A DNA stretch of 46,559 nt from Selenomonadaceae bacterium (GTDB taxonomy: Bacteria > Bacillota > Negativicutes > Selenomonadales > Selenomonadaceae): positions 1 through 46,559 of the forward strand of contig JAFUTY010000024.1 of the NCBI GenBank assembly GCA_017484005.1, in the 5' to 3' direction. The notes beneath the pieces are model-generated. The model had not been told where the DNA came from. It did no database searches and was given only the letters and a program-made list of their open reading frames with translations. Below are positions 2,737-23,861 of the stretch, one piece after another; the first letter of the stretch is position 1; every line of letters begins with the position of its first letter. The translations under genes were made by a program, and so were the position numbers.

Positions 2737-2820
2737 ATCTCGAATCACTGACGCGCGATAAATTTTTCGGCGAATGATATCCTTTTTATGGTTGGAAAAT
2801 CAATTGAAAGGATGATTTGC

Positions 2821-3618
2821 ATGGAAAATCGTTTGAAAATTGTCAAAGAATCGAAGGGATATTGGCGCGTCGTTATCAGCAATCCTCCGGTGAATCTGTT
2901 TGATCCTTGGATGTTTGCGGAGCTCAATGTTTTGATGGATCAAACGGAACGTGACGAGGATCTTCGAGTTGTAGTTTTCGAGAGTGCTGATGAAAACTTT
3001 TTCATGGATCACCATGACGTCGAGCATCGTTTGCAAGTTCCGGAGCAGGATGGAGGTCGAGCATTTTTCTTCGAGTGGTCAAATTGGGTTTCGAGATTGG
3101 CAAATTCGCGAGTCATCAGCATTGCGAAAGTCAGAGGTCGGGCATGGGCTCAAGGATTCGAATTCATCCTCGCCTGCGATCTTGTTTATGCATCGGAGAA
3201 AGCTCAATTCTCGCTCGTCGAAGTTGGCGGTGGAGTGATTCCTGGCGGCGGAGGAGTTGAATGGCTAGCTCGACTTGTCGGAAGATCTCGCGCAATTGAA
3301 ATCGTCTGCAGTTCTGAATCTTACAACGCGGAGCTCGGTGAAAAATATGGATTTGTGACTCGCGCGATTCCAGATTCTGAACTCGATGAATTTGTAGATC
3401 GCATGGCAAATCGACTCGGCAGATTTTCAACTCGTGCGCTTGCGATTGGAAAACGCATGGTCAATTCGCGGGCGGGAATTCCATCGACGGCAGATCTTTT
3501 CATGTCTCAATATGTTCTTCGAAGTTCAGATTTGTGGGAAGGTGCTGATGCAGATCTTCCAGTGGATCAAATGAATATTGTGAGTGATTATGAACTTAAT
3601 ATGCCCTCGAAACTTTGA
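2821..3618 (+). CDS. enoyl-CoA hydratase/isomerase (crotonase) family protein
   Basis: A 265-residue crotonase-fold protein. Family features are NPPVNLF near residue 20, VVVFESADENFFMDHHDV (the acyl-CoA loop), an oxyanion-hole segment AKVRGRAWAQGFEFILACDLVYAS around 105-125, and FSLVEVGGGVIPGGGGVEWLARLVGR (about 130-155), which replaces the usual FGLPEVxLGLxPGxGG. The Glu of VEVGGG matches one catalytic position. HHDVEHR in place of the common AGxDL suggests a divergent member, so the substrate is not assigned. The ATG at 2821 is preferred over an upstream in-frame ATG because AAAGGATG precedes it by about 7 nt. It is probably controlled by the divergent TetR-type gene. The 3' end overlaps the converging methyltransferase by 31 bp. 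Confidence 0.8.
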   Translation: MENRLKIVKESKGYWRVVISNPPVNLFDPWMFAELNVLMDQTERDEDLRVVVFESADENFFMDHHDVEHRLQVPEQDGGRAFFFEWSNWVSRLANSRVISIAKVRGRAWAQGFEFILACDLVYASEKAQFSLVEVGGGVIPGGGGVEWLARLVGRSRAIEIVCSSESYNAELGEKYGFVTRAIPDSELDEFVDRMANRLGRFSTRALAIGKRMVNSRAGIPSTADLFMSQYVLRSSDLWEGADADLPVDQMNIVSDYELNMPSKL

Positions 3619-4301
3619 AGTCTCTCGAGAATTTTTTTGTAGAAGTTCGGATCGATCTCGCAGCCGATGAAATTTCTTCCGAGATTTTTCGATGCTATTG
3701 CAGTTGTCCCACTTCCAAGGAAACAATCGAGAATCAAATCTCCAGCGTTCGAATGTTTTCGAATCAATTCTTCAATCAGCTCGAGCGGTTTTTGAGTGGG
3801 ATGAAATCTATCCTTCGAGTGACAAATGGGAAACCGATAGACTCCAGAATCATATTCGGAGTTGAATGTCGGCTTCCCATTTTTTGTTCCCGTGACAGCG
3901 ATTTCTCGAGCATTCGTCAGATAATTTCGTTTTGAATTCAGCGGAACTGGATTCGTTTTGAGCCACTCAATAAATCGAATCTGCTTGAATCCCGCCCGAT
4001 CAAAATATTCTTTGAGCGTCGAAATTTTCCACAGATCATAAAAACAGATCATCGAGCCGCCAGATCTCAAAATTCTAAAACATTCCGCGACAACTAGATC
4101 GAGATTTTGAAATTGAGAATCCCAATCTCCAAATTCCATCGAAACTCGAAATCGATCTGTATCTCTTCCAGTCAAATCGCCGTGATTGAATCCAGTCTCT
4201 CGCGAAATTTCATATGGCGGATCGATCAAAACGAGATCGATTGAACTGTCCTCGATTGTCGGGAGAAAATCGAAACAGCTTTCACAACGAATTTCAATCA
4301 T
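3588..4301 (-). CDS. site-specific DNA methyltransferase, beta class (N4-cytosine/N6-adenine)
   Basis: A 237-residue DNA methyltransferase using S-adenosylmethionine. Motif IV DPPY (residues 27-30) comes before motif I (LILDCFLGSGTTAIA, near 190-205), the order of the beta class. HPTQKP just before motif I is the usual beta-class linker. DPPY fits either N6-adenine or N4-cytosine methylation. There is no restriction endonuclease nearby. Its ATG overlaps the stop of the last glycosyltransferase (TAATG), so it is translationally coupled to the tail of the long minus-strand cluster, an unusual place for an orphan methyltransferase. Target sequence unknown. Confidence 0.88.
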   Translation of the reverse strand: MIEIRCESCFDFLPTIEDSSIDLVLIDPPYEISRETGFNHGDLTGRDTDRFRVSMEFGDWDSQFQNLDLVVAECFRILRSGGSMICFYDLWKISTLKEYFDRAGFKQIRFIEWLKTNPVPLNSKRNYLTNAREIAVTGTKNGKPTFNSEYDSGVYRFPICHSKDRFHPTQKPLELIEELIRKHSNAGDLILDCFLGSGTTAIASKNLGRNFIGCEIDPNFYKKILERLQSFEGILSS

Positions 4302-5314
4302 TACATTCGCAACTTTGATAAAAAATTTCGAAAGATCTGCTTGAATTTCCGAGGCTTTTTTTCTGACTGAATCATTTTTGCTACGAGAGTGTGAATGAGA
4401 ATTCGAGTCAAATTTGTCAATTCGAGCTCGCGTAAAATTTGATCGATCGTTTCGATTTTCAATTCGCCGCGGCGATATGAACGCAGTACAAAAACATCAA
4501 GCACATGCATAATCTGCCGCTCTTCAGCCGCAAGTCTCAATTCAGTTGAAATTGTCAGCTTGTCGAATACATTTTCCATAAATTCAAGCATTAAAGGCAT
4601 TGAATTTATTGTTTGTCGTAGATGTTTCTCAGCTGATGAAGCCATCGTTTGAGTTGGAGTTAGTCGGTATAAATAGCAACACGCATCGATTACTTGAATT
4701 TTTTTTGCAAAACAGATTTCTGCAAGATTGAACATTCCATCGCCATCGCGCGTTATCAGTGGAAATCGAATCTGCTTATCGATTAAAAAATCACGCCGCT
4801 GAATTTTTATCCACGGCTCAACTGTCACATCACGATGCATAAATTCAAATTTGATTCGCTCCGTCAAATCTGAACTCATAATTCGTGGCTTTGGATTAGT
4901 ACAATGAATCTGCTCCAGTTGCCCAGTCAAATCCTCACCGCGAAAATAGGAATTCATATAAACGAGTTCCGCTTGAGATTCTTCCGCTACGTTGATAAAT
5001 GTTTCCAAAGTTTCTGGGAGAATCATATCATCGTGATCCATGAAATAGATATATTTTCCATTTGCAACTTTGATTCCAAGATTTCTTGATGAACTCTCGC
5101 CGGAATTTTTGATTTGATGAATGATTTTGATTCGAGGATCGTCATATTTCGAAACAATTTCCAGTGTTCGATCTGTCGAGCAGTCATCGACGAGAATTAG
5201 CTCGAAGTCTTTAAAAGTCTGATTCAACACAGATTCAATTGCAGTCTCGATGAATTTTTCGGAATTATAAAGCGGCATGACTATAGAAATTTTTGGATTC
5301 GAAAAATTTTCCAT
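4301..5314 (-). CDS. GT2-family glycosyltransferase, array member 1 (most promoter-distal)
   Basis: A cytosolic GT-A-fold glycosyltransferase, 337 residues, no membrane segment. N-terminal motifs are NPKISIVMPLYNSEKFIETA, DDCSTDRTLE, NSGESSSRNLGIKVA and the nucleotide-sugar/metal motif MDHDDMI. The conserved second half carries WIKIQRRDFL, FNLAEICFAKKIQVIDACCYLYR and a basic tail. Probably adds one sugar to a surface glycan; donor and acceptor cannot be read. The ATG at 5312-5314 is chosen because GAGAGG lies 7 nt upstream; a longer TTG-initiated frame to 5335 would overlap the preceding gene. No homopolymer tract, so constitutively in frame. Confidence 0.9.
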   Translation of the reverse strand: MENFSNPKISIVMPLYNSEKFIETAIESVLNQTFKDFELILVDDCSTDRTLEIVSKYDDPRIKIIHQIKNSGESSSRNLGIKVANGKYIYFMDHDDMILPETLETFINVAEESQAELVYMNSYFRGEDLTGQLEQIHCTNPKPRIMSSDLTERIKFEFMHRDVTVEPWIKIQRRDFLIDKQIRFPLITRDGDGMFNLAEICFAKKIQVIDACCYLYRLTPTQTMASSAEKHLRQTINSMPLMLEFMENVFDKLTISTELRLAAEERQIMHVLDVFVLRSYRRGELKIETIDQILRELELTNLTRILIHTLVAKMIQSEKKPRKFKQIFRNFLSKLRM

Positions 5315-5324
5315 GTTCAACCTC

Positions 5325-6308
5325 TCATTTACCAAATTTTTTCACGAATCGTGCCTCATATGCATTAACCAATACTCGAGTCAAATCTGAATCTGCACTT
5401 GAACACTCACTCAAAATTGAATCAATTTTTTCAATCGGCAAATCGCCACTATATATTCGCTTCAGATAAATTCTAAAATATCTATCGAAAGCTTCCGATT
5501 CGATTTCGATTCTAAAACTCTCTGGAATTTGGATTTTGGAGATGACTTCGCGCAAATATTGAATCGCTGGCGACAGAGATTGAGCCACTTTTCGCAAGTG
5601 AGTCTCAGCTGGCGCATCCATTGTTCGATTTGGATGAATCCTTCGCACATAGCAACACGCATCGATTACTTGTAACTTTTTTCCGAACGCAAGTTCCGCA
5701 AAATGAAACAGCACATCGCCGTTGAGTGTTGTCAATGGGAAATAGATATCGTTATTTCTAAGAAAATCCAGTCGCTGAATTTTTAGCCAAGGAGTGACGT
5801 GAGTTTTTCGATCTATATAGTCAGTTCGTAAACGCTCGATAAGATTTTCAGATAGAAATCTCGGCGTGGGATCTGCAAAAGATTCTTGCTCGATTTTGAC
5901 AATAGATGGCAACTGAAAATCTGAATCGTGAGTATCATACCAATGATTCATAAATACAACTTCCGCTCCAGATTCTTCTGCCGCATTGTAAAAAATCTCA
6001 AGCGTATTTTCTAGCATTGCATCGTCGTGATCTGCAAAATAGATATATTTTCCACGAGCAGTTTTGATTCCGAGATTTCGCGATGCACTTTCACCGGAAT
6101 TTTTATCTTTTCGAACGAACTTGATTCGTGGATCGTCATATTTCGAGATAATTTCAATCGTTGAATCTGTCGAACAATCATCAATCAAAATCAACTCGAA
6201 GTCCTTGAATGTTTGTGTCAAAACTGATTCAACTGCAGTCTCGATGAATTTTTCCGAATTGTAAAGTGGCATAACGATAGAAATTTTTGGATTCGAAAAA
6301 TTTTCCAT
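5325..6308 (-). CDS. GT2-family glycosyltransferase, array member 2
   Basis: 327 residues, GT-A fold. Motifs NPKISIVMPLYNSEKF, DDCSTDSTIE, NSGESASRNLG and ADHDDAM (the Asp box, with Ala replacing the usual Met/Leu). The first 150 or so residues are nearly identical to the next upstream member, while the C-terminal half differs, a mosaic pattern expected from duplication plus recombination. The start is ATG at 6306-6308 with GAGG just upstream; it follows the stop of the preceding gene by 2 nt, indicating coupled translation. Sugar specificity unknown. Confidence 0.9.
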   Translation of the reverse strand: MENFSNPKISIVMPLYNSEKFIETAVESVLTQTFKDFELILIDDCSTDSTIEIISKYDDPRIKFVRKDKNSGESASRNLGIKTARGKYIYFADHDDAMLENTLEIFYNAAEESGAEVVFMNHWYDTHDSDFQLPSIVKIEQESFADPTPRFLSENLIERLRTDYIDRKTHVTPWLKIQRLDFLRNNDIYFPLTTLNGDVLFHFAELAFGKKLQVIDACCYVRRIHPNRTMDAPAETHLRKVAQSLSPAIQYLREVISKIQIPESFRIEIESEAFDRYFRIYLKRIYSGDLPIEKIDSILSECSSADSDLTRVLVNAYEARFVKKFGK

Positions 6309-6310
6309 GT

Positions 6311-7312
6311 TCAACCTCGTTTATTAGATTTCTTGAAAAATCGTGCTCCAAATGTATTGATTAACACTCGAGTTAGATTCGAATCTGCAACTGAATATTC
6401 TTTTAAAATCGCATCTATCTTCTCAATCGGTAACTCTCCACGATATGCTCGATCTATGTAAAGTCTGAAATATCTCTCAATCGCTTCATTTTCAATCTCG
6501 ATTCGGAATTTTTCGGGAATTTGAATTTTTGACATCACTTTGCGTAGATATTGAATCGCTGGCGATATTGACTGTATAGTTTTTCGCAAGTGAGATTCAG
6601 CTGGCGCAGACATCGTCATGGTGCGATGTAAACGATACACATATCCATAAGCATCGATAATCTGCAATTTTTTTCCAAACGCAAGCTGTGCGAAATAGAA
6701 CAATACATCGCCATTTAGAGTTGTCGCAGGAAAATAGATCTGATTTTCTCGTAAAAAATCGAGTCGTTGAATTTTGAGCCAAGGCATTACATTGACTTTA
6801 TATTGCATATATTCATATTTTATACGTTCGACGATATCTTCGGACATAATTCTCGGTGTTGGATCTGCAAATGATTTTGGTTCGACGTTGACAATAGACG
6901 GCAACTGAAAATCTGAATCGTGAGTATCATACCAATGATTCATAAATACAACTTCCGCCCCAGATTCTTCTGCCACGTTATAAAAGATCTCGAGCGTGTT
7001 TTCTAGCATTGCATCGTCATGATCTGCAAAATAGATATATTTTCCTCGAGCAGTTTTGATTCCGAGATTTCGCGATGCACTTTCACCGGAATTTTTGATC
7101 TGTTTAAAAAGTTTTATTCGAGAATCGTCATATTTCGAGATAATTTCAAGCGTTGAATCTGTCGAGCAGTCATCAATTAAAATCAACTCGAAGTCCTTGA
7201 ATGTTTGTGTCAAAACTGATTCAACTGCAGTCTCGATGAATTTTTCCGAATTGTAAAGTGGCATAACGATAGAAATTTTTGGATTCGAAGAAATTTCCAT
7301 GTCCAACTTCAT
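6311..7312 (-). CDS. GT2-family glycosyltransferase, array member 3
   Basis: 333 residues, GT-A fold: SSNPKISIVMPLYNSEKF, DDCSTDSTLE, NSGESASRNLG, ADHDDAM, then FYFAQLAFGKKLQIIDAYGYVYR. A 47-bp stretch (7086-7132), encoding the region before NSGES, is identical in DNA to part of the array gene at 14457-15479, although the surrounding sequence differs; this points to gene conversion. The ATG at 7310-7312 has AAGGAG 8 nt upstream. It follows a 79-nt gap, the largest inside this half of the array, in which I see no further feature. Confidence 0.9.
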   Translation of the reverse strand: MKLDMEISSNPKISIVMPLYNSEKFIETAVESVLTQTFKDFELILIDDCSTDSTLEIISKYDDSRIKLFKQIKNSGESASRNLGIKTARGKYIYFADHDDAMLENTLEIFYNVAEESGAEVVFMNHWYDTHDSDFQLPSIVNVEPKSFADPTPRIMSEDIVERIKYEYMQYKVNVMPWLKIQRLDFLRENQIYFPATTLNGDVLFYFAQLAFGKKLQIIDAYGYVYRLHRTMTMSAPAESHLRKTIQSISPAIQYLRKVMSKIQIPEKFRIEIENEAIERYFRLYIDRAYRGELPIEKIDAILKEYSVADSNLTRVLINTFGARFFKKSNKRG

Positions 7313-7391
7313 TTAAAAATCTCCTTCAAAATCGCAATATTAATCGGTAATTCATCGATTGACTGCAGTTTTGCTCAAAAATCCAATTGAA

Positions 7392-8415
7392 TCACTCTCT
7401 ATCTTGAGAAACCGCAACGTAATTGAATAAAACACGCATCAGATTCGGATCGAAAACTCTCGGATCGCAAAATAATTCCATAAGAAGTGAATTGATTTCT
7501 TCGCGAGTCATTTTGCTACGCAGAGCATTGTTGAAACATCCCTGTACAAATGCTCTAATCATTCGATGTTCCATCATGTTTCTCACGTCGTTTCGAATTG
7601 ACTCGGTGCAGTTTATGGATTGAATAACTTGACCAGTGAAACGAAGAGCCTCCGACAGTGATGAAGTTGCCATTCGAATTTTCTTTGCTGGATTTTGATT
7701 TGTCACGCTAGCACTGTTTTTCCGATAAAAATAGCAACAAGCATCGATCACTTGAATCTTTTCAATCAAACAAAGCTCAGCAAAATTGAAAAGTACATCC
7801 GCGCTCAAACTGGTTGTCGGAAAATAGATTTGATTTTTTATAAGCAAGTCGCGACGCTGGATTTTTATCCATGGCGTGACAAAAATATTGATAGGCAAAT
7901 ATTCTTGACGAATTCGTTCCTTGATATCCATTGATAGAAATCTCGGCGTGGGATTTTTGCAAATCAGTTTTGAAAAATCATTTTCATTCATAAACGCCCG
8001 ATCCTTTTCAAATGACAACTCAGGATCGTCGATTTTGTTTTGGAAACAGGAATTCATATACACAACGCCTGCCCCAGATTCATCCGCGGCATTCACAAAT
8101 ATTTCGAGAGTGTTTGGAACGATAGCATCATCGGAATCCATGAAGTAGACATATTCTCCGCTCGCTATTTTCAGACCAAAATTTCGAGAGTCACTTTCTC
8201 CGGAATTTTTGATCTGTCGAACAAGTTTGATTCGCAGATCAGTGTACTTCGAAACAATCTCGTAAGATCGATCTGTGGAACAATCGTCAACAACAATCAC
8301 TTCGAAATCAGTGAAAGTTTGCGCGAGGATCGAATCGATGCAAATCCCAATGTATTTTTCGACGTTAAACATCGGGATAACAACAGAAACTCGGGGGGGG
8401 GGGCAGTTTTGTCAT
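7392..8415 (-). CDS. phase-variable GT2 glycosyltransferase, array member 4 (out of frame here, C11)
   Basis: The start ATG (8413-8415), with its own upstream AAGGAGAAT site, reads MTKL and then enters a run of 11 C on the coding strand. With 11 the frame is lost and translation stops after about 16 residues, at a TAA that overlaps the internal ATG of MFNVEKYI. With 10 or 13 C the reading becomes MTKLPPP(P)RVSVVIPMFNVEKYIG, a complete GT2 of about 340 residues with DDCSTDRS, NSGESDSRN, MDSDDAI and WIKIQRRDLL. The gene is therefore OFF in this sequence unless the run length is a sequencing error. The overlap of the OFF-frame stop with an internal ATG might allow weak reinitiation of a truncated product. 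Confidence 0.85.
8393..8403. repeat. G11 homopolymer (phase-variation tract), array member 4
   Basis: Eleven consecutive G on the plus strand (C on the coding strand), five codons into the gene. Runs of this length are very unlikely by chance in DNA this AT-rich. It is directly followed by CAGTTTT. Ten or 13 would restore the frame. Confidence 0.9.
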
Positions 8416-8428
8416 ATAAATTCTCCTT

Positions 8429-9480
8429 CTATTTTACCAATTCTTTCGCAATGATATTGAACAGCGATCTAATCAAATCAGAATCGAGCATTTGCGATTC
8501 TTTGAATAATTCGTTGATGTGATTATCCCAATCGCCAAGTTTTTCTTGTCCGTGATAGCCACTACCAGCCGCCGCTTTAAAATATGATCGAATCGTTTGT
8601 CGCTCGATTTCGTCTTTCAAAGAATATTTGACATCTTCCGGCAAATTCGTTGATTGAATCATTTCATCCGCAAATTTAATAGCATGAGGGATTGCCAAAA
8701 TCTTTTTGCGAACTACTCTTTTTCGATAATCATACTCTCGGAGTGTTTTCGAGGATCTGCGACGCCAAATATAATTGCAAGCGTCAATCACTTGAATTTT
8801 TTCGATAAAACAAAGCTCCTCAAGATTGAAATATTTATCTTCAAGCCAATCTACATTCAAAGGAAAACAAATCGAATGTTTCATCAGGGATTCGCGACGC
8901 TGAATTTTTATCCAAGAGAAAACCGGAAGATCGCCTCGTAATGCTTGATTGATTCGCTCTTTGATGTCATTTGTCAAAAATCGCGGGTTAGTATTTCTAC
9001 ATTGTTGCTTTGTCAGATTTTTCTTTGAAACAATTGATTCTCCAGTTGGCAATTTGGAAATAGAATTCTCGTCATCCGTTGCAAACCATGAATTCATATA
9101 TACAACTCCAGCTCCAGATTCTTCCGCCGCATTGACAAGTGTTTCGAGAGTATTTGGAAGAATCGCATCGTCAGAATCTATGAAGTAAATGAATTCTCCA
9201 CGGGCAACTTGAATTCCAAAATTTCGGCTGAATGAACGTTCCGCATGTTTGATGTTTTGAAACAATCGAATTCTCGAATCGAATTTTGAACTCGATATGT
9301 CGCAAAATTTTTCTCGAACGATTTCATAACTTTGATCCTCGGAACGATCGTCGATAACAATTACTTCAAAATCAGTGAGTGTTTGAACAAGAATTGAATC
9401 AATGCAAGTCTCGATGTACTTTTCGACGTTAAACATCGGAATAACAATAGAAACTCGGGGGGGGGGGGCATCATTTTCAT
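8429..9480 (-). CDS. phase-variable GT2 glycosyltransferase, array member 5 (out of frame here, C12)
   Basis: The ATG at 9478-9480, with GGAGG 7 nt upstream, reads MKMM and then 12 C; the GT2 frame needs 10 or 13, so the gene is OFF in this sequence. When ON it gives about 350 residues: PRVSIVIPMFNVEKYIETC, DDRSEDQS, FSRNFGIQVA, IDSDDAI, WIKIQRRESL, FNLEELCFIEKIQVIDACNYIWR. It differs from its siblings by an insertion before FDSRIRLFQNI and by DDRS instead of DDCS. Cytosolic; sugar specificity unknown. Confidence 0.85.
9457..9468. repeat. G12 homopolymer (phase-variation tract), array member 5
   Basis: Twelve G on the plus strand immediately inside the coding start. Flanked by CATCATTTTCAT rather than the CAGTTTT seen at the other tracts. 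Thirteen or ten restores the frame. Confidence 0.9.
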
Positions 9481-9496
9481 GTAAATCCTCCTTAAC

Positions 9497-10276
9497 TTAA
9501 TTTTTGAGGAATCGCTTATAAATTTCGAGATCCATCGTTTTGAAGACGTTGAAAATAACTCGAATATTTCCAGCGAATTTTCTCACAGATCTAATCGCAA
9601 CTCGGGCGGCAGTTTCATTATCGAAATGGAAAACTCCCGTCGAAATGCAACAGAATGCAACACTCGACAGATTTTTTTCGTGAGCAAGATTCAAACTCGA
9701 TTCATAACATTTAGCAAGAAGATCGCATTCTTTTCGATGTGGAAGTCCGGCATGATCAATAATTGGTCCAACTGTATGAATCACGAATCGCGCAGGTAAA
9801 TTAAATCCTGGAGTGATAATTGCGTTGCCAGTCTCACATTGATTTCCATTCATGATTTCGTCGCAAGTATTTCGAAGTTGAATCCCAGCAGCAGAATGAA
9901 TTGCGTTATCAATACAGTTATGAAGTGGAATGAAACATCCCAACATCGCAGAATTTACCGCATTGACAATCGCATCAACTTTGAGCCTCGTGATATCTCC
10001 TTGCCATAGAAAAATTTTTCCAGAATCGAAAGAGAGCATCTCCTTATCACCGATTTCGATGATTCCCTTCCGATCGATCTCCTCACGAAGAATTTCATCT
10101 TGCAAATCGAGAAACTCTTGCGATATCGGTGCAGGATCTCTAACGTTCATTAACGCTCGAAGAAGTTGCAATTGATCTTTCTCAGTTTTTGGAACTTCTG
10201 ACGCTCGAGGATTTGGATTTTCTTTAAGCAGAATCGAATTGAGTTTCAAAATTTTTTCCAGTCGAGTCAATATCAA
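9497..10276 (-). CDS. zinc-dependent macrodomain protein, probable protein-ADP-ribose hydrolase
   Basis: About 259 residues. An N-terminal helical extension is followed by a macrodomain from about residue 85: IFLWQGDITRLKVDAIVNAVNS, GCFIPLHNCIDNAIHSAAG, GNAIITPGFNLPARFVIHTVGPI and SVAFCCISTGVFHF. The Cys/His/Cys in GCFIPLHNC match the zinc ligands of the SirTM-linked Zn-macrodomains of Staphylococcus and Streptococcus, which remove ADP-ribose that SirTM attaches to protein. Its partner SirTM lies 6 kb upstream in the same cluster, so a write/erase pair is likely; the usual GcvH-L and lipoate ligase partners are absent from the window. The start is uncertain: TTG at 10276 overlaps the preceding remnant's stop, and TTG at 10270 has better spacing from AGGAAG. 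Confidence 0.88.
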   Translation of the reverse strand: MILTRLEKILKLNSILLKENPNPRASEVPKTEKDQLQLLRALMNVRDPAPISQEFLDLQDEILREEIDRKGIIEIGDKEMLSFDSGKIFLWQGDITRLKVDAIVNAVNSAMLGCFIPLHNCIDNAIHSAAGIQLRNTCDEIMNGNQCETGNAIITPGFNLPARFVIHTVGPIIDHAGLPHRKECDLLAKCYESSLNLAHEKNLSSVAFCCISTGVFHFDNETAARVAIRSVRKFAGNIRVIFNVFKTMDLEIYKRFLKN

Positions 10277-10422
10277 TCACTTCCTATCTGTAGAAATTGC
10301 AACAAAGTCGAACAAAACACGTATTAATTTGGATCGTAGATTTTTGGATCATTTGTCGTCTCGATGTATTTTTCAACGTTAAACATCGGAATTACAATTG
10401 AAAATTGGGGACATTCTGTCAT
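10277..10422 (-). pseudogene. GT2 glycosyltransferase remnant (internally deleted)
   Basis: The ATG at 10420-10422 reads MTECPQFSIVIPMFNVEKYIE, the normal GT2 N-terminus, and then joins directly to a normal array C-terminus (DPKIYDPN, then LIRVLFDFVAISTDRK after a one-base deletion that creates a stop). About 870 nt of the middle is missing. This is the scar of a deletion between or within array genes. In place of a G-tract it has only CCCC, so it may descend from a non-variable member or one whose tract collapsed. The macrodomain start overlaps its old end. Confidence 0.85.
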
Positions 10423-10433
10423 ATACATTCCTT

Positions 10434-11455
10434 CTATTTAATCAATTCAGTTGCGATGAAATTAAACAAAATTCGCATTAAATTCGGATCGAAAATTTTC
10501 GGATTTCTAAACATCTCGAGCAAAACTGAATCAATTTCTTCTTGAGTCATATTGCTACGATATGCTCGGCAGAGAAAGACAGCAAAATAACTTCTGATTG
10601 TCTGTGGCTCGATTATGTTTTTGATTTTGAGTTTAAGTGATTCTGTTATGTGCATTTGCGAAATGATTTTATTGATGAAATTCATTGCCTCCGGAAGAGA
10701 CGAAATCGTTTCTCGAATTTGTTTTTCTGGATGCGCACGCAATGTATTGTTTTTCCTGTTTCGATAAATATAGCAACAGGCATCGATCACTTGAATTTTT
10801 TCAATCAAGCAAAGTTCCGCAAAATTGAATAGCACATCTTCGCGTCGATTGATCAATGGAAAATAAATTCGATTGTTGAAAAGACATTCGCGACGCTGAA
10901 TTTTAATCCATGGAACGACGGGAACTGTTTGTTTGATGAAATCCCAATGAATCCTTTTTTCAATATCTGTCGATAAAAATCGCGGTCTGGAGTCTTTGAT
11001 CACATGTTTTTCTAGATCATCTTTGGAAGGAATTGAAAAAGCATCGCCGGATTTGAACGAAACATTCTCATCTCTAGTTGAGAACCAAGAATTCATGAAA
11101 ATCACATCAGCACCAGATTCGTCCGCTGTGTTCATAAATGTTTCGAGAGCATCTGGCATCAAAGCATCATCAGAATCCATGAAAAATATAAATTCTCCCT
11201 GCGAACATTCCAATCCGACGTTTCGAGTGAATGATCGTTCAGAATTCTGGATGTTTTGCATGAGTCGAATTCGAGGATCAGTGTATTTCGAAACAATCTC
11301 GAAAGAACGATCTGTAGAACGGTCATCAATTACAATCACTTCGAAATTTTGAAAAGTTTGCGCAAGGATTGAATTAATACAAGTCTCGATATATTTTTCG
11401 ACGTTGTACATCGGGATGACAATAGAAACTCGGGGGGGGGGGGCAGTTTTGTCAC
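10434..11455 (-). CDS. phase-variable GT2 glycosyltransferase, array member 6 (out of frame here, C12)
   Basis: The start is most likely GTG at 11453-11455 (MTKL, same as array member 4), with GGAGGAGAATCATT upstream. Twelve C follow, where 10 or 13 are needed, so the gene is OFF in this sequence. When ON it encodes about 340 residues: PRVSIVIPMYNVEKYIETC, DDRSTDRSFE, FTRNVGLECSQGE, MDSDDAL, WIKIQRRECL, FNFAELCLIEKIQVIDACCYIYR and the conserved tail DPNLMRILFNF. The remnant just downstream has a closely similar C-terminus, suggesting a common origin. Confidence 0.85.
11432..11443. repeat. G12 homopolymer (phase-variation tract), array member 6
   Basis: Twelve G on the plus strand, directly followed by CAGTTTTGTCA, the same 11-bp flank as at array member 4. 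One added base (13) would switch the gene ON. Confidence 0.9.
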
Positions 11456-11468
11456 AATGATTCTCCTC

Positions 11469-12437
11469 CTATTTTATTAACCATTTCGCGATAACATTGA
11501 ATAGAACTCGCATCAGATTTGGATCTAAAATTTTATGATCTTGGAGAATTTCGCTGATAGTGGAATCAATCTCCTTTTGCGTCAATTCTCCACGATATGC
11601 CTCAAGAATGTTCGTTCCGAAATATGATACAACAGTTCTGCGCTCGATTTCGTCTTTGAACTCGAATTTAGTTTCATCAGGCAAATTCATTGACTCGACA
11701 ATTTTGTCCAGATAATTAATCGCCACTGGGAGAGATCCAATTGCGTCTTGAAATTGAATTTTTGGATTTGCTTTCGAAGTGTTCGTTGGATGCTGACGCC
11801 AAATATATCCACATTCATCGATTACTTGAATTTTATCGATCAAACACATTTCTGCCACATTGAACAGACAATCTTCCCGTCGAGTCACCAATGGGAAATA
11901 AATTCGATTCTTAGTCAACAATTCTCGACGCGAAATTCGAATCCATGGCATAACGAACACACCATATTTATAATATTCCTTGTGAACTCGTTGCGGAATA
12001 TCTTCGGACAAAAATCGCGGCGTTGGATCTTTGCAAGTGTAGTGCTCAAACGCTCCGTCATAATCGAAAAAATAAGAATTCATCAATACAACGCCAGCTC
12101 CAGATTCTTCCGCCGCTGAAACAAATGTATCTAGGCAATGTGGAAAAATTTCATCATCATGATCCATGAAATAGATGTATTCACCATGAGCAACGTCGAT
12201 TCCATGATTTCTCGATGCAGAGATTCCCGAGTTCGATTCATTTTGTACAACTCGAATTCTCACATCATTGAACTTTTCTCGAACGATATCAAATGTCGAA
12301 TCAGTTGAACAATCATCGACAAGAATCAACTCAAAATCTTTGAACGTTTGAGAGAGAACGGAATTGATACACGGCTCGATATATTTTTCATCATTAAACA
12401 CTGGAATCACGATCGAGACTTTTGGAGAAGTTGTCAT
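11469..12437 (-). CDS. GT2-family glycosyltransferase, array member 7
   Basis: 322 residues, GT-A fold. TSPKVSIVIPVFNDEKYIEPC, DDCSTDSTFD, NSGISASRNHGIDVA, MDHDDEI, WIRISRRELL, FNVAEMCLIDKIQVIDECGYIWR and DPNLMRVLFNVIA. No homopolymer tract, so stably expressed. The ATG at 12435-12437 lies 2 nt after the preceding gene's TGA (GTGAATATG); a GTG in the same frame 6 nt earlier is possible. AAAGGA serves either start. Sugar and acceptor unknown. Confidence 0.9.
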   Translation of the reverse strand: MTTSPKVSIVIPVFNDEKYIEPCINSVLSQTFKDFELILVDDCSTDSTFDIVREKFNDVRIRVVQNESNSGISASRNHGIDVAHGEYIYFMDHDDEIFPHCLDTFVSAAEESGAGVVLMNSYFFDYDGAFEHYTCKDPTPRFLSEDIPQRVHKEYYKYGVFVMPWIRISRRELLTKNRIYFPLVTRREDCLFNVAEMCLIDKIQVIDECGYIWRQHPTNTSKANPKIQFQDAIGSLPVAINYLDKIVESMNLPDETKFEFKDEIERRTVVSYFGTNILEAYRGELTQKEIDSTISEILQDHKILDPNLMRVLFNVIAKWLIK

Positions 12438-12439
12438 AT

Positions 12440-13441
12440 TCACAAAATCCTTTCAACTTCAAGCATTTTATAAGACAATGAATTGATTATGACACGCATG
12501 AGATCCGGATTAAACATTTGTTCTTGCATTAGTATATCGCGCAAAATGGAATTAATTTCATCGATTGTTAGCTCGTCGCGATATGACTTGAGAACTAGCG
12601 AATGAAAATAGTTATAAATGATCTTAGTTTCCCAAAAATTTATTGATTCGCTCGAAGACATGAATTCTTGCGATGTGCGATTGAGAATATCGCGGACAAA
12701 ATCTAACGCTGTCGGCAATGACAAAATTGCTTTTCGAAAATGATTTCCAGCTGAGAGTTTCATTGTCTGTTCTGGATGCTTTCGATAGATATATCCACAA
12801 CCGTTAATCACTTGAATTTTCGACGCTAGACACAATTCCGCAAAATGAAATAACACATCTCCACGCATTTCCACTTCCGGAAAGTAAATCTGATTTTCAA
12901 AAAGAAATTCGCGCCGCTGAATTCGAATCCATGGATAAACATGAATTCCGAAATCGATATACTCTTTCTGCAATCTCACCCCGAGATCTTCCGGTAAAAT
13001 TCTCGGCTTGGGATTCTTGAATGAATTTTTACTGATTTGAATCTCGTCACTCAAAGAAAAATTTTCATCATGAGTATCATACCAATAACTCATTAAAACA
13101 ACTTCCGCTCCAGATTCTTCCGCCGCGTTGTAAAAAACTTCAAGCGTATCACTGAGAATTACATCATCATGATCCATGAAGTAGATATATTTTCCCTTCG
13201 CGATTTTCAAACCGAGATTTCGAGAATCACTTTCGCCAGAATTTTGAATCTGTTGAAAAATTTTCACGCGTGGATCTGAATATCTTTGAACGATTTCCAA
13301 ACTTCCATCGGTCGAGCGGTCGTCAATTACAATCAATTCAAAATCAGTGAAAGTTTGTGCAAGAATTGAATCAATACATGTTGCGATATATTTTCGAGTA
13401 TTATACAGAGGAATCACGATCGAAATTTTTGGCTGAATCAT
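12440..13441 (-). CDS. GT2-family glycosyltransferase, array member 8
   Basis: 333 residues: QPKISIVIPLYNTRKYIATC, DDRSTDGSLE, NSGESDSRNLGLKIA, MDHDDVI, WIRIQRREFL, FHFAELCLASKIQVINGCGYIYR. The tail FNPDLMRVIINSLS is the family signature. The ATG overlaps the upstream gene's TGA (ATGA), and GGAGG lies 6 nt before it, so translation is coupled. No tract. Function inferred from the family only. Confidence 0.9.
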   Translation of the reverse strand: MIQPKISIVIPLYNTRKYIATCIDSILAQTFTDFELIVIDDRSTDGSLEIVQRYSDPRVKIFQQIQNSGESDSRNLGLKIAKGKYIYFMDHDDVILSDTLEVFYNAAEESGAEVVLMSYWYDTHDENFSLSDEIQISKNSFKNPKPRILPEDLGVRLQKEYIDFGIHVYPWIRIQRREFLFENQIYFPEVEMRGDVLFHFAELCLASKIQVINGCGYIYRKHPEQTMKLSAGNHFRKAILSLPTALDFVRDILNRTSQEFMSSSESINFWETKIIYNYFHSLVLKSYRDELTIDEINSILRDILMQEQMFNPDLMRVIINSLSYKMLEVERIL

Positions 13442-14457
13442 GACGTTCCTCCTTGAAACTTCAGTTGAATCATAGCTGTTGATAGAGTGTTAATCAAGAC
13501 TCGCATTAATCCCGGCGAAAACATCTGTGATTTATGAACTATTTGATCGATTAGTTCATTTATTTTTTCTGAATCGATTTCGCCATCGAGAGATTTGATA
13601 ATGTATTCATTGAAAAATCTTGAGATACATTCCGATTCGAGTTGAATTTTTATTTGAGGATCGAAGACTGAATTGACGCGAGAATTTTTGAAAATCGAGT
13701 CGAGAAATTTTAGCGCGATTGGCATCGATGTTAGAGCTTTTTGGAGTCGTTTTTCAAATGGAGAATTCATTGTGCGCGATGAATGGACTCGATGAATATA
13801 TCCGCAAGCATCGATTACTTGAATTTTTCGAGCGAGACACAATTCCGCAAAATGAAATAACACATCGCCATTGAGTGTCGTCTTTGGAAAATAGATCTGA
13901 TTCTCAAAAAGAAAATCGCGCCGCTGAATTCGAATCCATGGCGTGACATATGTTCCCCATTCGATATATTCCTGCTGAATTCTCTCGGAAAGATCTGCGG
14001 ATAAAAATCGAGGCGTTGGATTTTCAAAAAATCTTTGATAGACGTCAATTTCATCTGTCAAAGTGAATTCAGAATCATTGCTGTAGAAGTATGAATTCAT
14101 CAAAACAACTTCAGATTGAGATTCTTCTGCCGCATTATAAAAAATCTCGAGCGTGTCTGGAAGAATCGCATCATCGTGATCCATGAAGTAGATATATTTT
14201 CCCTGCGCAATTTTCAAACCGAGATTTCGAGAATCACTTTCACCAGAATTTTTGATCTGTCGATAGAGTTCAATTCGAGAATCATCATAACTCTCAACGA
14301 TTTCAGACGATCGATCAGTCGAGCAATCATCAATCACGATAATCTCGAAATCTTGAAATGTTTGTTGCAAAATCGAATCGAGACAAGTTGCAATATATTT
14401 TTCTGAATTGAAAGTTGGAATAACAATCGAAATTTTGGGAGAAGAAATTTTTGACAT
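13438..14457 (-). CDS. GT2-family glycosyltransferase, array member 9
   Basis: 339 residues: SPKISIVIPTFNSEKYIATC, DDCSTDRSSE, NSGESDSRNLGLKIAQGKY, MDHDDAI, WIRIQRRDFL, FHFAELCLARKIQVIDACGYIHR. The C-terminal region is slightly longer than in its siblings and ends FSPGLMRVLINTLSTAMIQL. The ATG at 14455-14457 overlaps the preceding stop (TGATG), with GAGGAG upstream. No tract. Closest within the array to member 8 in its N-terminal half. Confidence 0.9.
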   Translation of the reverse strand: MSKISSPKISIVIPTFNSEKYIATCLDSILQQTFQDFEIIVIDDCSTDRSSEIVESYDDSRIELYRQIKNSGESDSRNLGLKIAQGKYIYFMDHDDAILPDTLEIFYNAAEESQSEVVLMNSYFYSNDSEFTLTDEIDVYQRFFENPTPRFLSADLSERIQQEYIEWGTYVTPWIRIQRRDFLFENQIYFPKTTLNGDVLFHFAELCLARKIQVIDACGYIHRVHSSRTMNSPFEKRLQKALTSMPIALKFLDSIFKNSRVNSVFDPQIKIQLESECISRFFNEYIIKSLDGEIDSEKINELIDQIVHKSQMFSPGLMRVLINTLSTAMIQLKFQGGTS

Positions 14458-15479
14458 CAAATCTCCTCACCTTTCAAAATTGTTGTCAATTGAAACAGAT
14501 AAACAGATAGCGCATCGGTTAAAAATCGAACGAGTTCAGGATTCGATGGAACTATGCTCGCAATGCTTTCATCGAGTATTTGATCGAGTTCAGCCAGCTC
14601 TAGTTCTCCAAAATATGCAGGCACTATAAATGTAGAGAAAAAATGTCTGATTTGATATGCTTCGACGCGAATTCTCATTGATTCTGGAAGATATGATATT
14701 AAATTTTTCGATGAAAATATCCATTTGATGTATTTCGCCGCTACTGGTAATGACAGAATTGATTCTCGAAGATGTTTCTGCGTCTTGGCATGCATTGTAT
14801 TGTCTTGATGTGCTCGATAAACATATCCGCAAGCATCGATCACTCGGAATTTTTTAGCGAAACATAATTCCGCAAGATAGAATAATACATCGCCTTCACG
14901 TGTTGTCTTTGAAAACAGGATTTCATTTCTAACCAAAAAATCGCGGCGATGAAGTTTCATCCATGGCGTCACCGAACAATGATTATTGATAAATTCATTT
15001 TGCAAACGTTCAGACAAATCTGCACTGAAAAATCTCGGCGTTGCATTCAATATATGCATTTGCGAAACATCAACCGGATTATCGAAAGAGAAATCTGGAG
15101 AATGTGTTTCATATAAAGCATTCATACAGACAACTTCCGATTGAGACTCTTCCGCCGCATTGTACAAAATCTCGAGCGTGTCTGGAATAATCGCATCATC
15201 GTGATCCATGAAATAGACATATTTTCCTGATGCAACTTTCAAACCAAAATTTCGAGAGTCACTTTCTCCGGAATTTTTGATCTGTTTAAAAAGTTTTATT
15301 CGAGAATCGTCATAACGCTGAACAATTTCGATAGTCCTATCAGTTGAACAATCATCAATCAAGATCAATTCGAAATCTTGAAGTGTTTGTCGCAATATTG
15401 ATTCGATGCAAGTCTCGATGTATTTTTCTACATTAAACATCGGGACAATGATTGAAACTCGAGGCGAAATTCTTTTCAT
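14457..15479 (-). CDS. GT2-family glycosyltransferase, array member 10
   Basis: 340 residues: SPRVSIIVPMFNVEKYIETC, DDCSTDRTIE, NSGESDSRNFGLKVASGKY, MDHDDAI, WMKLHRRDFL, FYLAELCFAKKFRVIDACGYVYR. It has the RVS N-terminus of the variable members but no C-tract (MKRISPRVS), so it could be a fixed-ON relative. A 47-bp stretch (15268-15314) is identical to one in array member 3. The ATG at 15477-15479 is 3 nt after the upstream TAG, with AAAGGA serving as ribosome site. Confidence 0.9.
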   Translation of the reverse strand: MKRISPRVSIIVPMFNVEKYIETCIESILRQTLQDFELILIDDCSTDRTIEIVQRYDDSRIKLFKQIKNSGESDSRNFGLKVASGKYVYFMDHDDAIIPDTLEILYNAAEESQSEVVCMNALYETHSPDFSFDNPVDVSQMHILNATPRFFSADLSERLQNEFINNHCSVTPWMKLHRRDFLVRNEILFSKTTREGDVLFYLAELCFAKKFRVIDACGYVYRAHQDNTMHAKTQKHLRESILSLPVAAKYIKWIFSSKNLISYLPESMRIRVEAYQIRHFFSTFIVPAYFGELELAELDQILDESIASIVPSNPELVRFLTDALSVYLFQLTTILKGEEI

Positions 15480-15482
15480 TGA

Positions 15483-16541
15483 CTATTTTCCTTTCAATTG
15501 TTGAATTGTCTTTTGCAGTTGATTCACGATAGCTGTTTTATGATTTTTCTCAACGATTTGCAACATCAGTGATTGAATCAAAACGCGGATGAAATTGAGA
15601 TCTAGGATGTTTGAATTATGAACGATATCCTCTACAATCATATCGATTCTGTCGAGAGATAGTTCCGAGCTGTAAATTGGAGATGTGATATATGCAAAAT
15701 GTTGCGCAATCAATCCATTTTCCAAAATGACTCTTAGCTGTCGTGGAAAATTTTGCATAGCGGGCGACTCAAAAACTTCGCTCATAAATTTCATCGCGAC
15801 TGGAATTGATTCTATGGACTGCCGAAGACGTTTTTCAACTGGAGAATTTGTCGTATTTCCATGACGCATTCGATATATGTAACGACACGCATCAATAACC
15901 TGGAATTTTTGAGCAAAGCACATTTCTGCAAAATGAAACATGATATCGCCACAACGCGCAATATTCGGAAAATAAATTTGATTCTCAAGAAGGAAATCGC
16001 GCCGTTGCATTCGCATCCAAGGGACAACAGACACGCCCATCACTTGAAAATCATTCTGCAGACATTCAACCAAATTCGTGGATAAAAATCGCGGAGTTGG
16101 ATTAATTGTCAATCGTTTATTGATTTTTATCTTTGACGGGAATTGAAATTCTTCATCATGCGTTTCAAAATATGAATTCATAATGACAACTTCAGCCTGA
16201 GACTCTTCTGATGAATTTACAAGCGTTGCAATTGTGTTAGGCATCAGCGCGTCATCATCATCCATGATGTAAATATATTTTCCCTGCGATAAAGATATTC
16301 CCAAATTTCTAGAAACACTTTCGCCGAAATTTTTGAACTGCCTAAATAATTTGATTCGTGGATCATTATAACTCGCGACGATCTCGGCACTTCGATCTGT
16401 CGAACAGTCATCAATTACAATCACTTCGAAATCTTGAAAAGTTTGTGAGAGAATTGAATCGAGACAAGTTTTTATAAATTTTTCGACGTTAAACATCGGG
16501 ATAACAATAGAAACTCGGGGGGGGGGGGCAGTTTTCAACAT
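15483..16541 (-). CDS. phase-variable GT2 glycosyltransferase, array member 11 (in frame here, C12)
   Basis: 352 residues, the longest of the array. The ATG at 16539-16541 overlaps the sirtuin's TGA (TGATG). The product begins MLKTAPPPRVSIVIPMFNVEKFIKTC, where the 12 C encode the end of Ala, three Pro and the first base of Arg; the frame holds only at 12 plus or minus multiples of 3, so this gene is ON in this sequence. Further motifs are DDCSTDRSAE, GESVSRNLGISLS, MDDDDAL, WMRMQRRDFL and FHFAEMCFAQKFQVIDACRYIYR. A basic tail (EKNHKTAIVNQLQKTIQQLKGK) follows the family signature. First glycosyltransferase in transcription order. Confidence 0.9.
   Translation of the reverse strand: MLKTAPPPRVSIVIPMFNVEKFIKTCLDSILSQTFQDFEVIVIDDCSTDRSAEIVASYNDPRIKLFRQFKNFGESVSRNLGISLSQGKYIYIMDDDDALMPNTIATLVNSSEESQAEVVIMNSYFETHDEEFQFPSKIKINKRLTINPTPRFLSTNLVECLQNDFQVMGVSVVPWMRMQRRDFLLENQIYFPNIARCGDIMFHFAEMCFAQKFQVIDACRYIYRMRHGNTTNSPVEKRLRQSIESIPVAMKFMSEVFESPAMQNFPRQLRVILENGLIAQHFAYITSPIYSSELSLDRIDMIVEDIVHNSNILDLNFIRVLIQSLMLQIVEKNHKTAIVNQLQKTIQQLKGK
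16517..16528. repeat. G12 homopolymer (phase-variation tract), array member 11
   Basis: Twelve G on the plus strand, followed by CAGTTTT. The only one of the four coding tracts whose length keeps the reading frame. Gain or loss of one base would stop translation within a few codons. Confidence 0.9.
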
Positions 16542-17377
16542 CAACTTTCTCCTCTCAACTGTTCCAATACTTCCGCAATATTTTCATTGATAACGATCGA
16601 TTTTTTGCGAATATCCTTCGGGACAAATGCTTCACCAAAATTGATCGTCGCGAGAGTTGTTTCATCGAATTCGCGAGTAAATTCCCAGAATGGATATTTG
16701 ATAATTCCTGGAGTATTCGATCCAACTCCCAATTCAAGCAGCAACATCGATTTGCCAAGATTTCTTTGCAAAAATTCTCGATATCTTTCAGCCGCCTCAT
16801 GCCAGCCATCATCTTCGACGAATAGATCATCGGATCTCAAATTCAGAGTCATTTCTTCACCGCATCGAGGACATTTCGGAATCAATTCCGTCGGGATTTT
16901 CATGTCACGCTGTTCAGAAACCATGCGACGAATTTGATCCTCATTGTCATAAGTTTTCTGGTGACATGGAGTCGAGCATTGAAACAATCCATAATCTCCT
17001 TGAGTGTAAAACAATCGCGATTTGTCAAATCCATTCGATTGAAACAAATGATCGAGGTTCGTCGTGATAACAAAATAATTTTTAGATTTGACAAGTTCAA
17101 AGAGATTTCGATGAACTTCGCTCGCTAGCTGATCATATCGATTGCAGAAAATGTATCGACTCCAATACGCCCAGAATTCTTCGCGCGTCGGAAATGGATA
17201 AAATCCTCCTGAATACATGTCATGAAATCCATATTTTTCTTCAAAGTCAGAGAAAATCGATCTGAATCGCTCGCCAGAATAGGTATATCCCGCAGCAGTT
17301 GATAATCCCGCGCCAGCACCAATCAAAATCGTTTCGGAATTTTGAATTGCATCTTTCAATTTTTCAATTTCAGTCAT
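16541..17377 (-). CDS. class M sirtuin (SirTM), probable protein ADP-ribosyltransferase
   Basis: 278 residues of the Sir2 fold. GAGAGLSTAAGYTYSG (about 21-36) is the NAD-binding loop. FVITTNLDHLFQSNGFD carries the conserved Asn and Asp. TQGDYGLFQCSTPCH has Gln where deacetylating sirtuins have the catalytic His, a mark of class M enzymes. CSTPC and CPRCGEEM form the zinc site. Known SirTM proteins of Staphylococcus and Streptococcus ADP-ribosylate lipoylated GcvH-L and are reversed by a Zn-macrodomain; here the macrodomain is in the same cluster but GcvH-L is not, so the target may differ. ATG at 17375-17377 with AAAGGGG upstream; the stop overlaps the next gene's ATG. Confidence 0.9.
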   Translation of the reverse strand: MTEIEKLKDAIQNSETILIGAGAGLSTAAGYTYSGERFRSIFSDFEEKYGFHDMYSGGFYPFPTREEFWAYWSRYIFCNRYDQLASEVHRNLFELVKSKNYFVITTNLDHLFQSNGFDKSRLFYTQGDYGLFQCSTPCHQKTYDNEDQIRRMVSEQRDMKIPTELIPKCPRCGEEMTLNLRSDDLFVEDDGWHEAAERYREFLQRNLGKSMLLLELGVGSNTPGIIKYPFWEFTREFDETTLATINFGEAFVPKDIRKKSIVINENIAEVLEQLRGES

Positions 17378-17409
17378 AACGTTCCCCTTTCAAAATTATT
17401 AATCAGCGT

Positions 17410-17931
17410 TCATCTCAACCGACTTAGATCATTGAGATAATTTTTTAGCGACTCCAAAATTTTCCTAAGCTCGGCACAATCATATTGATTCAACAGCAAA
17501 ACTGAATAATTGTTATATCGCTCGTCATACATCGAATATCGCAAGCTGTTATTCAGAAATCTGAAATTCAAATTTTTAATCACATGAACTTGCAATTGCT
17601 GATTCATTTGCTCAAAAAGAGTTTTATTGTTTCCGGAATACACTTTGAGCAATAATTCAAGCGATCTATTCAGTGAATGTCCCATCGTTTTTCCAATTTC
17701 ATCGGCAAAATATTTGTTAAGTACATTGATTTTTGTTGCGATGTGAGACTTAACATATTTCTCCATAGCTTGAATCAAAAAATATGCGGCTTGATTATAC
17801 AATTTTTGGCTTTCCAAAATGCTCGCAGTTCTCTCGTCATTCTGTGCAATTTGAAAGTAATTTTCCGAAACTTCAATTCTGCTATTTAGAAAGATTTTTT
17901 TGCCAACTCTCAATTTTTGAATTTCAGTCAT
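17410..17931 (-). CDS. HEPN-domain-like protein, first gene of the cluster
   Basis: 173 residues, all helical in appearance. The segment NQAAYFLIQAMEKYVKSHI, then GHSLNRSLELLLK, then LRYSMYDERYNNYS matches the HEPN pattern (A..EK..K, GH.L, RY-motif near the C-terminus). HEPN proteins are often RNases or partners of nucleotidyltransferases. I do not see a clear catalytic R-x4-6-H, so it may be a binding or regulatory HEPN. Its N-terminus MTEIQKLR resembles the MTEIEKLK of the sirtuin downstream. ATG at 17929-17931 with GAGGGGG upstream; it sits directly behind the cluster promoter. Confidence 0.65.
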   Translation of the reverse strand: MTEIQKLRVGKKIFLNSRIEVSENYFQIAQNDERTASILESQKLYNQAAYFLIQAMEKYVKSHIATKINVLNKYFADEIGKTMGHSLNRSLELLLKVYSGNNKTLFEQMNQQLQVHVIKNLNFRFLNNSLRYSMYDERYNNYSVLLLNQYDCAELRKILESLKNYLNDLSRLR

Positions 17932-18007: not shown

Positions 18008-18361
18008 GGGGATGTAATGGTTTCGACGGGTGCAGATGAATCTGCAATAGCGAGCACCGGGGGCATCGAACCGGTTCAGTAAGGTGCAACTTCTTCTAAC
18101 ATAAACGCAGAAGAATACGATTACGCTCTCGCGGCTTAATCGCGGGCATCTATCACTTGACCGTCTGCTAGAGTGAATAGATGTAGCAGCAGACTCATCC
18201 GGCGGCAATTTCTCTAACCGCTGGAAAAATTTTTAGAGGATCGATCGATTTGAGTTTGTCCGTGGACTCATTGAGATTTAAATTCGACCACGAGACTGCG
18301 CTCGGAGAATTTGCAGGGGCAATGTGTTCGGACAGGAGTTCGATTCTCCTCATCTCCACCA
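18008..18361 (+). ncRNA. ssrA: transfer-messenger RNA (tmRNA)
   Basis: The one-piece tmRNA starts GGGGATGTAATGGTTTCGACGGG and ends with the tRNA-like T-arm GTTCGATTCTCC, acceptor CATCTCC and encoded ACCA; the first and last 7 nt pair as an acceptor stem. The tag frame near 18104-18139 reads NAEEYDYALAA then TAA, a normal ALAA degradation tag. It releases ribosomes stalled on broken messages and marks the products for proteolysis. Length about 354 nt. The exact resume codon just before the AAC is not certain. Confidence 0.95.
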
Positions 18362-19081: not shown

Positions 19082-19083
19082 AA

Positions 19084-19350: not shown

Positions 19351-19389
19351 GAATCTCACCTCCAATGACAATATTTCAAACTTCTATGA

Positions 19390-19656: not shown

Positions 19657-19695
19657 GAACCTCACCTCCAATGACAATATTTCAAATTTCCATGA

Positions 19696-19962: not shown

Positions 19963-20012
19963 GAATTTCACCTCCCATGACAATATTACTCGCAATGAAA
20001 GGATGAATCAAC

Positions 20013-23847: not shown

Positions 23848-23861
23848 GAAGATAACCAAAC

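Follow-up and report, generated by a model that had tools for sequence, protein, structure and literature searches.

Layout of the locus

The window analysed here is the whole stretch of 46,559 nucleotides of contig JAFUTY010000024.1 (C23), one of the 72 contigs of a 2.44-Mb Selenomonadaceae genome. Fifteen genes on its minus strand (17931-3588) form a run in which a class M sirtuin (SirTM) and a zinc macrodomain protein (Zn-Macro), predicted to write and to erase protein ADP-ribosylation, are set among eleven genes of the GT2 family of glycosyltransferases (GTs, numbered GT1 to GT11 along the run). The gene order is HEPN-like gene, SirTM, GT1-GT6, Zn-Macro, GT7-GT11 and DNA methyltransferase, and the probable remnant of a twelfth GT2-family gene sits on the same strand between GT6 and the Zn-Macro gene. 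A sequence-only reading of this DNA had named these genes and described a same-strand run with overlaps or short gaps; all of them were found on the minus strand where that reading had placed them, and the intergenic gaps range from -11 to +157 bp (open reading frames, ORFs, as listed). The run starts 76 bp from ssrA (the tmRNA gene; 18008-18361, plus strand), and its 3' end overlaps an enoyl-CoA hydratase-like gene on the opposite strand (2788-3618). The features of the run are:

17410..17931, minus strand: HEPN-like protein, 173 amino acids, first gene of the run (PF05168 below cut-off, fold search)
16541..17377, minus strand: SirTM, class M sirtuin, predicted protein ADP-ribosyltransferase (5A3A match and class residues)
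15483..16544, minus strand: GT1, GT2-family, C12 tract at start, in frame (PF00535 7.7e-36)
16517..16528, minus strand: poly-C tract C12, start of GT1 (from sequence)
14457..15479, minus strand: gene GT2, GT2-family (PF00535 3.2e-36)
13438..14460, minus strand: GT3, GT2-family (PF00535 1.8e-38)
12440..13441, minus strand: GT4, GT2-family (PF00535 4.2e-36)
11469..12443, minus strand: GT5, GT2-family (PF00535 1.9e-37)
10434..11455, minus strand: GT6, GT2-family, GTG start at 11455, C12, out of frame in the assembly (PF00535 5.4e-30)
11432..11443, minus strand: poly-C tract C12, start of GT6 (from sequence)
10324..10422, minus strand: probable remnant of a twelfth GT2-family gene (gap translation; repeat family D6 copy at 10344-10410, 82%)
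9497..10276, minus strand: Zn-macrodomain, predicted protein ADP-ribosylhydrolase (PRK04143, 8RSI, 5KIV, zinc motif)
8429..9480, minus strand: GT7, GT2-family, ATG at 9480, C12, out of frame in the assembly (PF00535 4.3e-27)
9457..9468, minus strand: poly-C tract C12, start of GT7 (from sequence)
7392..8415, minus strand: GT8, GT2-family, ATG at 8415, C11, out of frame in the assembly (PF00535 3.4e-33)
8393..8403, minus strand: poly-C tract C11, start of GT8 (from sequence)
6311..7312, minus strand: GT9, GT2-family (PF00535 1.9e-33)
5325..6314, minus strand: GT10, GT2-family, 78% identical to GT9 (PF00535 5.8e-35)
4301..5335, minus strand: GT11, GT2-family (PF00535 1.3e-38)
3588..4301, minus strand: DNA methyltransferase, 237 amino acids (PF01555 3.4e-38; PADLOC MTase_II 1.1e-51)

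The predicted writer and eraser

Both ADP-ribosylation enzymes were correctly recognised in the sequence-only reading. The best PDB match of SirTM is SpySirTM (5A3A, E 3.5e-69), whose N118, Q137 and R192 align with N107, Q126 and R181 of the window protein; the class motif GVGx[NT]TP is present as GVGSNTP, and the His of the HG motif is replaced by Gln (QG), with Q126 standing opposite SpySirTM Q137. The protein scored 26.2 bits against PF02146 in hmmscan, and as the PF02146 profile gave no match in its own genome, the SirTM protein was used as query instead. The macrodomain protein reached 312.9 bits against the NCBIfam model PRK04143 (protein-ADP-ribose hydrolase; cut-off 272), its nearest solved chains being 8RSI (E 1.5e-70) and 5KIV (E 2.6e-60). 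The Zn-Macro motifs Cx4HxC and Dx3H, as given in PMC11490716, are both present in the alignment (CFIPLHNC and DNAIH), and the NAAN motif of MacroD-type catalytic macrodomains (Zn-Macros included) reads NAVN in the window. We class the protein as a Zn-Macro by its zinc motif and the curated model, with hydrolase activity as a prediction. The search for a second macrodomain in this genome returned none at E 1e-20.

The matches to the two enzymes are 6,267 bp apart, with six GT2-family genes and the GT remnant in between. Since SirTM and Zn-Macro are not adjacent here, as they are in the SirTM/Zn-Macro minimal operon, we name the pair a split variant rather than a member of that operon.

Distribution of the pair among relatives and public loci

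The genus survey comprised 66 genomes, the present one included and many of them incomplete assemblies, with thresholds of E ≤ 1e-30 for SirTM and E ≤ 1e-55 for a full-length Zn-Macro. SirTM was detected in 29 genomes, Zn-Macro in 27 and both in 27; Zn-Macro without SirTM was never seen (27/27 together; Fisher p 1.7e-16 over the 66 genomes, a value that ignores relatedness). In most relatives having both, the two genes are neighbours: among the 28 SirTM-positive relatives, the Zn-Macro gene lies within 30 bp of SirTM in 17 and within 549-829 bp in three (G015, G084, and G088). In G005 (locus L046, 9373-10193), SirTM is spread over two overlapping frames, being either broken or misassembled, with an open Zn-Macro gene behind it.

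GcvH (PF01597) exceeded the cut-off in none of the 66 genus genomes vs. 10 of 14 control genomes. A GcvH encoded elsewhere in the genome was considered as a hidden target and rejected, as no match passed the cut-off (G000 holds one weak match with internal stops). We therefore infer that the pair, if active, must have a target other than GcvH. The absence of GcvH-L and lipoate ligase from the run, pointed out in the sequence-only reading, is confirmed insofar as neither is among the families found in the genes of the run; it is nothing special, since no GcvH passes the cut-off in any of the 66 genus genomes and SirTM/Zn-Macro operons independent of GcvH-L and LplA have already been described (PMC4518038 and PMC11490716).

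The neighbourhoods of SirTM or Zn-Macro in the 28 relatives (36 loci, 469 kb, several of which end at contig edges) contained no GT2-family array, no HEPN gene and no methyltransferase of this kind. Single GT2-family matches occurred in three of the 36 loci: G015 and G084 have one directly downstream of the Zn-Macro gene, and in G027 it lies on the opposite strand at a distance of 2.6 kb, while no GT2-family gene adjoins the pair in 26 of the 28 relatives. Among the best 80 of at least 584 public stretches encoding SirTM (three of the 80 being genus records already counted), a macrodomain was present in 61 and a GT2-family gene in one (L139, 2.2 kb away, opposite strand); absences in these public loci are weaker evidence, as many of them are short. 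One of them (L141), from the cultured Selenomonas ruminantium S137, has the two genes of the pair side by side. A link between GT2-family genes and SirTM as a general feature was rejected on the two sets of loci together. The gene-neighbourhood search with SirTM had been set beforehand as a check on the proposal that the whole composition acts as one system, and its outcome went almost completely against that proposal, the exceptions being the single GT2-family genes of G015, G084, and G027.

A different context was seen at three loci (L067, L068, and L069) of the relatives G070, G081, and G087, where SirTM stands behind a gene of one cluster and next to a divergent gene of another. In G070 (L068), the sole one scanned, the gene ahead of SirTM is of an NAD(P)-binding family and the divergent one encodes an Rrf2-type regulator, possibly a redox-controlled form of the pair, which would fit a redox role.

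The glycosyltransferase array and its poly-C tracts

All eleven GTs scored above the PF00535 cut-off and carry the DD and DxDD residues that form the motif of GT2 glycosyltransferases, with pairwise identities of 39-78% (median 45%). The remnant probably consists of a gene start fused to a C-terminal-like end through an internal deletion, and because it lies directly before the Zn-Macro gene, it suggests that copies have been both gained and lost at this border. A tree of 50 GT2 domains, in which 25 rows from relatives were chosen as strong or positionally interesting matches, placed the 11 window GTs together with 12 copies from contigs C66, C54, and C39 of the same genome in one group (23 rows, support 99/94), which grew to 24 rows when the long-branched copy of C34 was added (94/89). 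All 25 rows from relatives lay outside this group, as did the C53 copy of the same genome. The window GTs do not form a branch of their own, being interspersed with the C54 copy and two of the C66 copies. Judged from these sequences, the family is an expansion seen in this genome. The GT2-family genes next to Zn-Macro in G015 and G084 were considered as ancestors of the array and rejected, as they belong to another GT2 branch in the tree. Contig C66 carries a second GT2-family array, where SirTM is absent and an Amidase_3 gene is enclosed; such arrays can therefore hold unrelated genes. The 20.4 kb of C66 examined contained no G/C run of nine or more.

Four of the eleven GTs (GT1, GT6, GT7, and GT8) contain a C11 or C12 tract, always at the same position, immediately before the first strand of the GT2 domain; the number of runs of 11 expected from dinucleotide shuffling of the window is 0.00. 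For GT6, GT7, and GT8, the ORF list gave internal ATGs, and the start codons lie upstream of the tract (11455, 9480, and 8415). At the assembled tract lengths, which are assembly consensus values, GT1 is in frame, while the reading ends after 39 codons in both GT6 and GT7 and after 16 in GT8. A poly-G/C tract of at least nine in or at a gene is given as the threshold for phase variation in PMC5953494, and by this measure these four GTs are candidate phase-variable simple sequence repeat genes. To judge from the sequence, the tracts would switch them on and off, and the idea of a phase-variable GT array, for which the sequence-only reading had offered no evidence, gains its support from here. 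Contig C54 ends within a C run at the equivalent position of another member of the family. The tract-plus-strand pattern of the window had no match in the 65 other genus genomes, although the pattern is narrow and missed the tract of G084.

Poly-C tracts are common in this genome, with 282 overlapping C10 matches. Twelve distinct tracts, from 30 of these matches, were examined; eight lie in an open frame of at least 100 codons and four do not. The Pfam scan of seven of the eight tract-bearing frames gave an FkbM methyltransferase, two radical SAM proteins, a GT8 domain and a pyridine nucleotide oxidoreductase, and left two without a family. Elsewhere in the window, a G13 tract (32016-32028) is located in an extracellular solute-binding-protein gene (31920-33053, SBP_bac_11) beside a second such gene (32794-34230), and the former is possibly another phase-variable gene, as its sequence hints.

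Flanking genes and genomic setting

The protein encoded by the first gene of the run is termed HEPN-like only, because its score against PF05168 (19.8 bits, E 9e-4) is under the Pfam cut-off of 22. Six of seven aligned members, the window protein among them, match this family at E 0.01, and the AF2 model (pLDDT 78) has a mostly helical predicted fold, with the HEPN protein 4NQF as top Foldseek match (prob 1.00, E 0.03) at the head of a list led by HEPN proteins (E ≥ 0.03). The HEPN gene of the sequence-only reading is thus more weakly upheld than the other genes, by predicted fold and family resemblance. HEPN nucleases have a conserved R-H arrangement, the Rx4-6H motif. The position of Rx4H in our alignment holds R in two of eight sequences and lacks it in the window protein, which does not carry the ribonuclease motif. 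A homologue was found in one of the 59 other genus genomes examined (G004, 50% identity; L065, 1467-1961), which is 60% complete and has no SirTM match; its neighbours look flagellar. At the other end of the run, the DNA methyltransferase matches PF01555 (E 3.4e-38), as had been proposed, and no restriction gene was recognised beside it.

Predicted promoters and terminators inside the run were not above the counts in shuffles (promoter-like matches, 47 vs. 43.5, sd 5.5). The ssrA gene was considered as a conserved insertion site and rejected, as the flanks of the window ssrA had no gene in common with those in 17 loci of relatives, except SirTM in G087 (L069), where it lies ~1.3 kb from ssrA on the opposite side compared with the window. 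In L226, L227, and L228 (G016, G035, and G078), a small macrodomain gene lies on the 3' side of ssrA, at 1.4-2.2 kb from the start of that gene. Downstream of the window ssrA (18432-19995) are five small minus-strand ORFs, membrane-protein-like by appearance, three of which are similar copies inside a 306-bp tandem repeat. Two further repeats occur in the window: an adenylosuccinate lyase gene ends in a tandem duplication of 317 bp (23545-24165), and 3.5 copies of a 168-bp repeat separate two genes for NMT1-like solute-binding proteins (26528-27114).

Interpretation and competing explanations

We consider it probable (roughly 0.75) that the locus holds a SirTM/Zn-Macro pair split by six genes of a GT2 family that expanded in this genome, with four of the eleven GTs carrying a putatively switching poly-C tract. 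SirTM and the GT array are likely neighbours and not one system, because related genomes bear SirTM and lack the GT run. By analogy with biochemically studied pairs, SirTM would use NAD+ to modify a target other than GcvH and the Zn-macrodomain would reverse this modification; slipped-strand errors at the tracts may change the set of GT2-family enzymes made, and hence the surface glycan. The array would have grown around the macrodomain gene as copies duplicated in tandem, and pair and array would share at most a transcript and no common pathway; the two functions are most likely independent, on what is probably a single transcript.

Several observations weigh against this view. Zn-Macro and SirTM lie on different contigs in six of the 28 relatives (in two of the six, G064 and G066, the SirTM match reaches or nearly reaches the contig end), and the distance between them is therefore not unique to this genome, while SirTM occurs without a detected Zn-Macro in G008 and G031 (83% and 85% complete). 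The GT2-family gene directly behind Zn-Macro in G015 and G084, whose start in G084 contains a C11 tract, belongs to another branch and still occupies the same place, so that GT2-family neighbours of the pair apparently have more than one origin. The NAVN motif is found in one of 34 distinct macrodomain matches of the compared loci, the other 33 having NAAN, which keeps the hydrolase activity of the window protein putative. GT1 starts within the end of the SirTM gene and several gene borders in the run overlap by 4 bp, a tight packing that suggests, as far as gene order can tell, a single transcript that selection could use. Finally, close metagenomic relatives, whose SirTM proteins (P0002-P0006 and P0008) are 93-97% identical and lie on contigs of 2.4-7.8 kb, stand outside the context comparison, and the array, described here from this genome, may extend beyond it.

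The same packing underlies the main alternative, a very unlikely polar effect, in which frameshifted GT1 or GT6 would lower the expression of the downstream Zn-Macro, so that slippage would set the dose of the eraser and the eraser:writer ratio cell by cell together with the surface glycan. Every tract is downstream of SirTM and two (GT1 and GT6) are upstream of Zn-Macro on the presumed transcript, the GT1 start overlaps the SirTM stop, the out-of-frame GT6 ends after 39 codons, and in G084 a poly-C tract also lies between Zn-Macro and the next GT. However, the idea is drawn from sequence order, the G084 tract is downstream of both enzymes, and the Zn-Macro gene of the window has its own start region after a 157-bp gap, which contains a weak promoter-like match of a kind hardly more frequent than in shuffles. 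If it were true, sister cells would differ randomly in the modification of a non-GcvH target as well as in their surface glycan.

The sequence-only reading had instead proposed that SirTM ADP-ribosylates a GT or the HEPN protein and that the macrodomain reverses this, tying stress or phage sensing to the cell surface. The shared strand, the short gaps between the SirTM, GT, Zn-Macro and HEPN-like genes and the GT2-family neighbours of Zn-Macro in G015 and G084 speak for such a system, which we nevertheless regard as very unlikely: GT2-family genes do not adjoin the pair in 26 of 28 SirTM-positive relatives and are missing from 79 of the 80 public loci, those of G015 and G084 are of another branch, and a HEPN homologue was found in one of the 59 other genus genomes examined. 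Least probable of all is a defence island, with the HEPN-like protein, methyltransferase and ADP-ribosylation enzymes directed against phages and surface variation as a second layer. The HEPN-like and methyltransferase genes do occupy opposite ends of a run that starts close to ssrA, but PADLOC at E 0.01 gave models for the methyltransferase and none for SirTM, Zn-Macro, the HEPN-like protein or the one GT tested, the subset of window genes scanned contained no restriction enzyme or nucleotidyltransferase, and the R-H arrangement of HEPN nucleases is not conserved.

With the split pair as the preferred explanation, the locus illustrates how an expanding gene family can part a conserved pair and mimic a new system. 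According to PMC11490716, it is not known what SirTM/Zn-Macro pairs modify when they lie outside the extended operon. A genus in which 27 of the 66 genomes carry both genes, and not one has a GcvH above the cut-off, offers a clean place to seek another target, and its genomes with and without the pair can be compared. The locus is further a record of a likely Selenomonadales genome rich in poly-G/C tracts.

Comparison with known systems

As in the SirTM/Zn-Macro minimal pair (PMC4518038, PMC11490716), both window genes lie on one strand in one run, without GcvH-L/LplA and with the class residues; they differ in being set apart by six GT2-family genes and a remnant, in the HEPN-like gene before and the methyltransferase after them, and in having NAVN rather than NAAN. 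The extended SirTM operon of Lactobacillales and Staphylococcaceae comprises GcvH-L, LplA2, OYE and LLM according to PMC4518038; the window shares its writer and eraser pair, whereas the run contains no carrier, ligase or oxidoreductase and has neither GcvH-L nor LplA2 (LplA was sought in the run only). With PF05168 HEPN proteins, the HEPN-like protein shares a mostly helical predicted fold and the family match in six of seven aligned members; it differs from them by its score under the cut-off, and no nucleotidyltransferase partner was recognised.

The lgt and pgl genes of Neisseria are poly-G/C phase-variable glycosyltransferases, as described in PMC5953494. Like them, four of the window GTs have a mononucleotide G/C tract of at least nine inside the gene; unlike them, these GTs belong to a likely Selenomonadales, and their tracts are at the same place in several neighbouring GT2 paralogues and are known here from the sequence alone. 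The literature searched, which left out most subscription journals, yielded no paper joining SirTM with glycosyltransferases and no described system of this composition, in agreement with the sequence-only reading. The evidence nonetheless argues against a new system: as a variant the arrangement is new, and its parts, SirTM/Zn-Macro operons and G/C-tract glycosyltransferases, are known.

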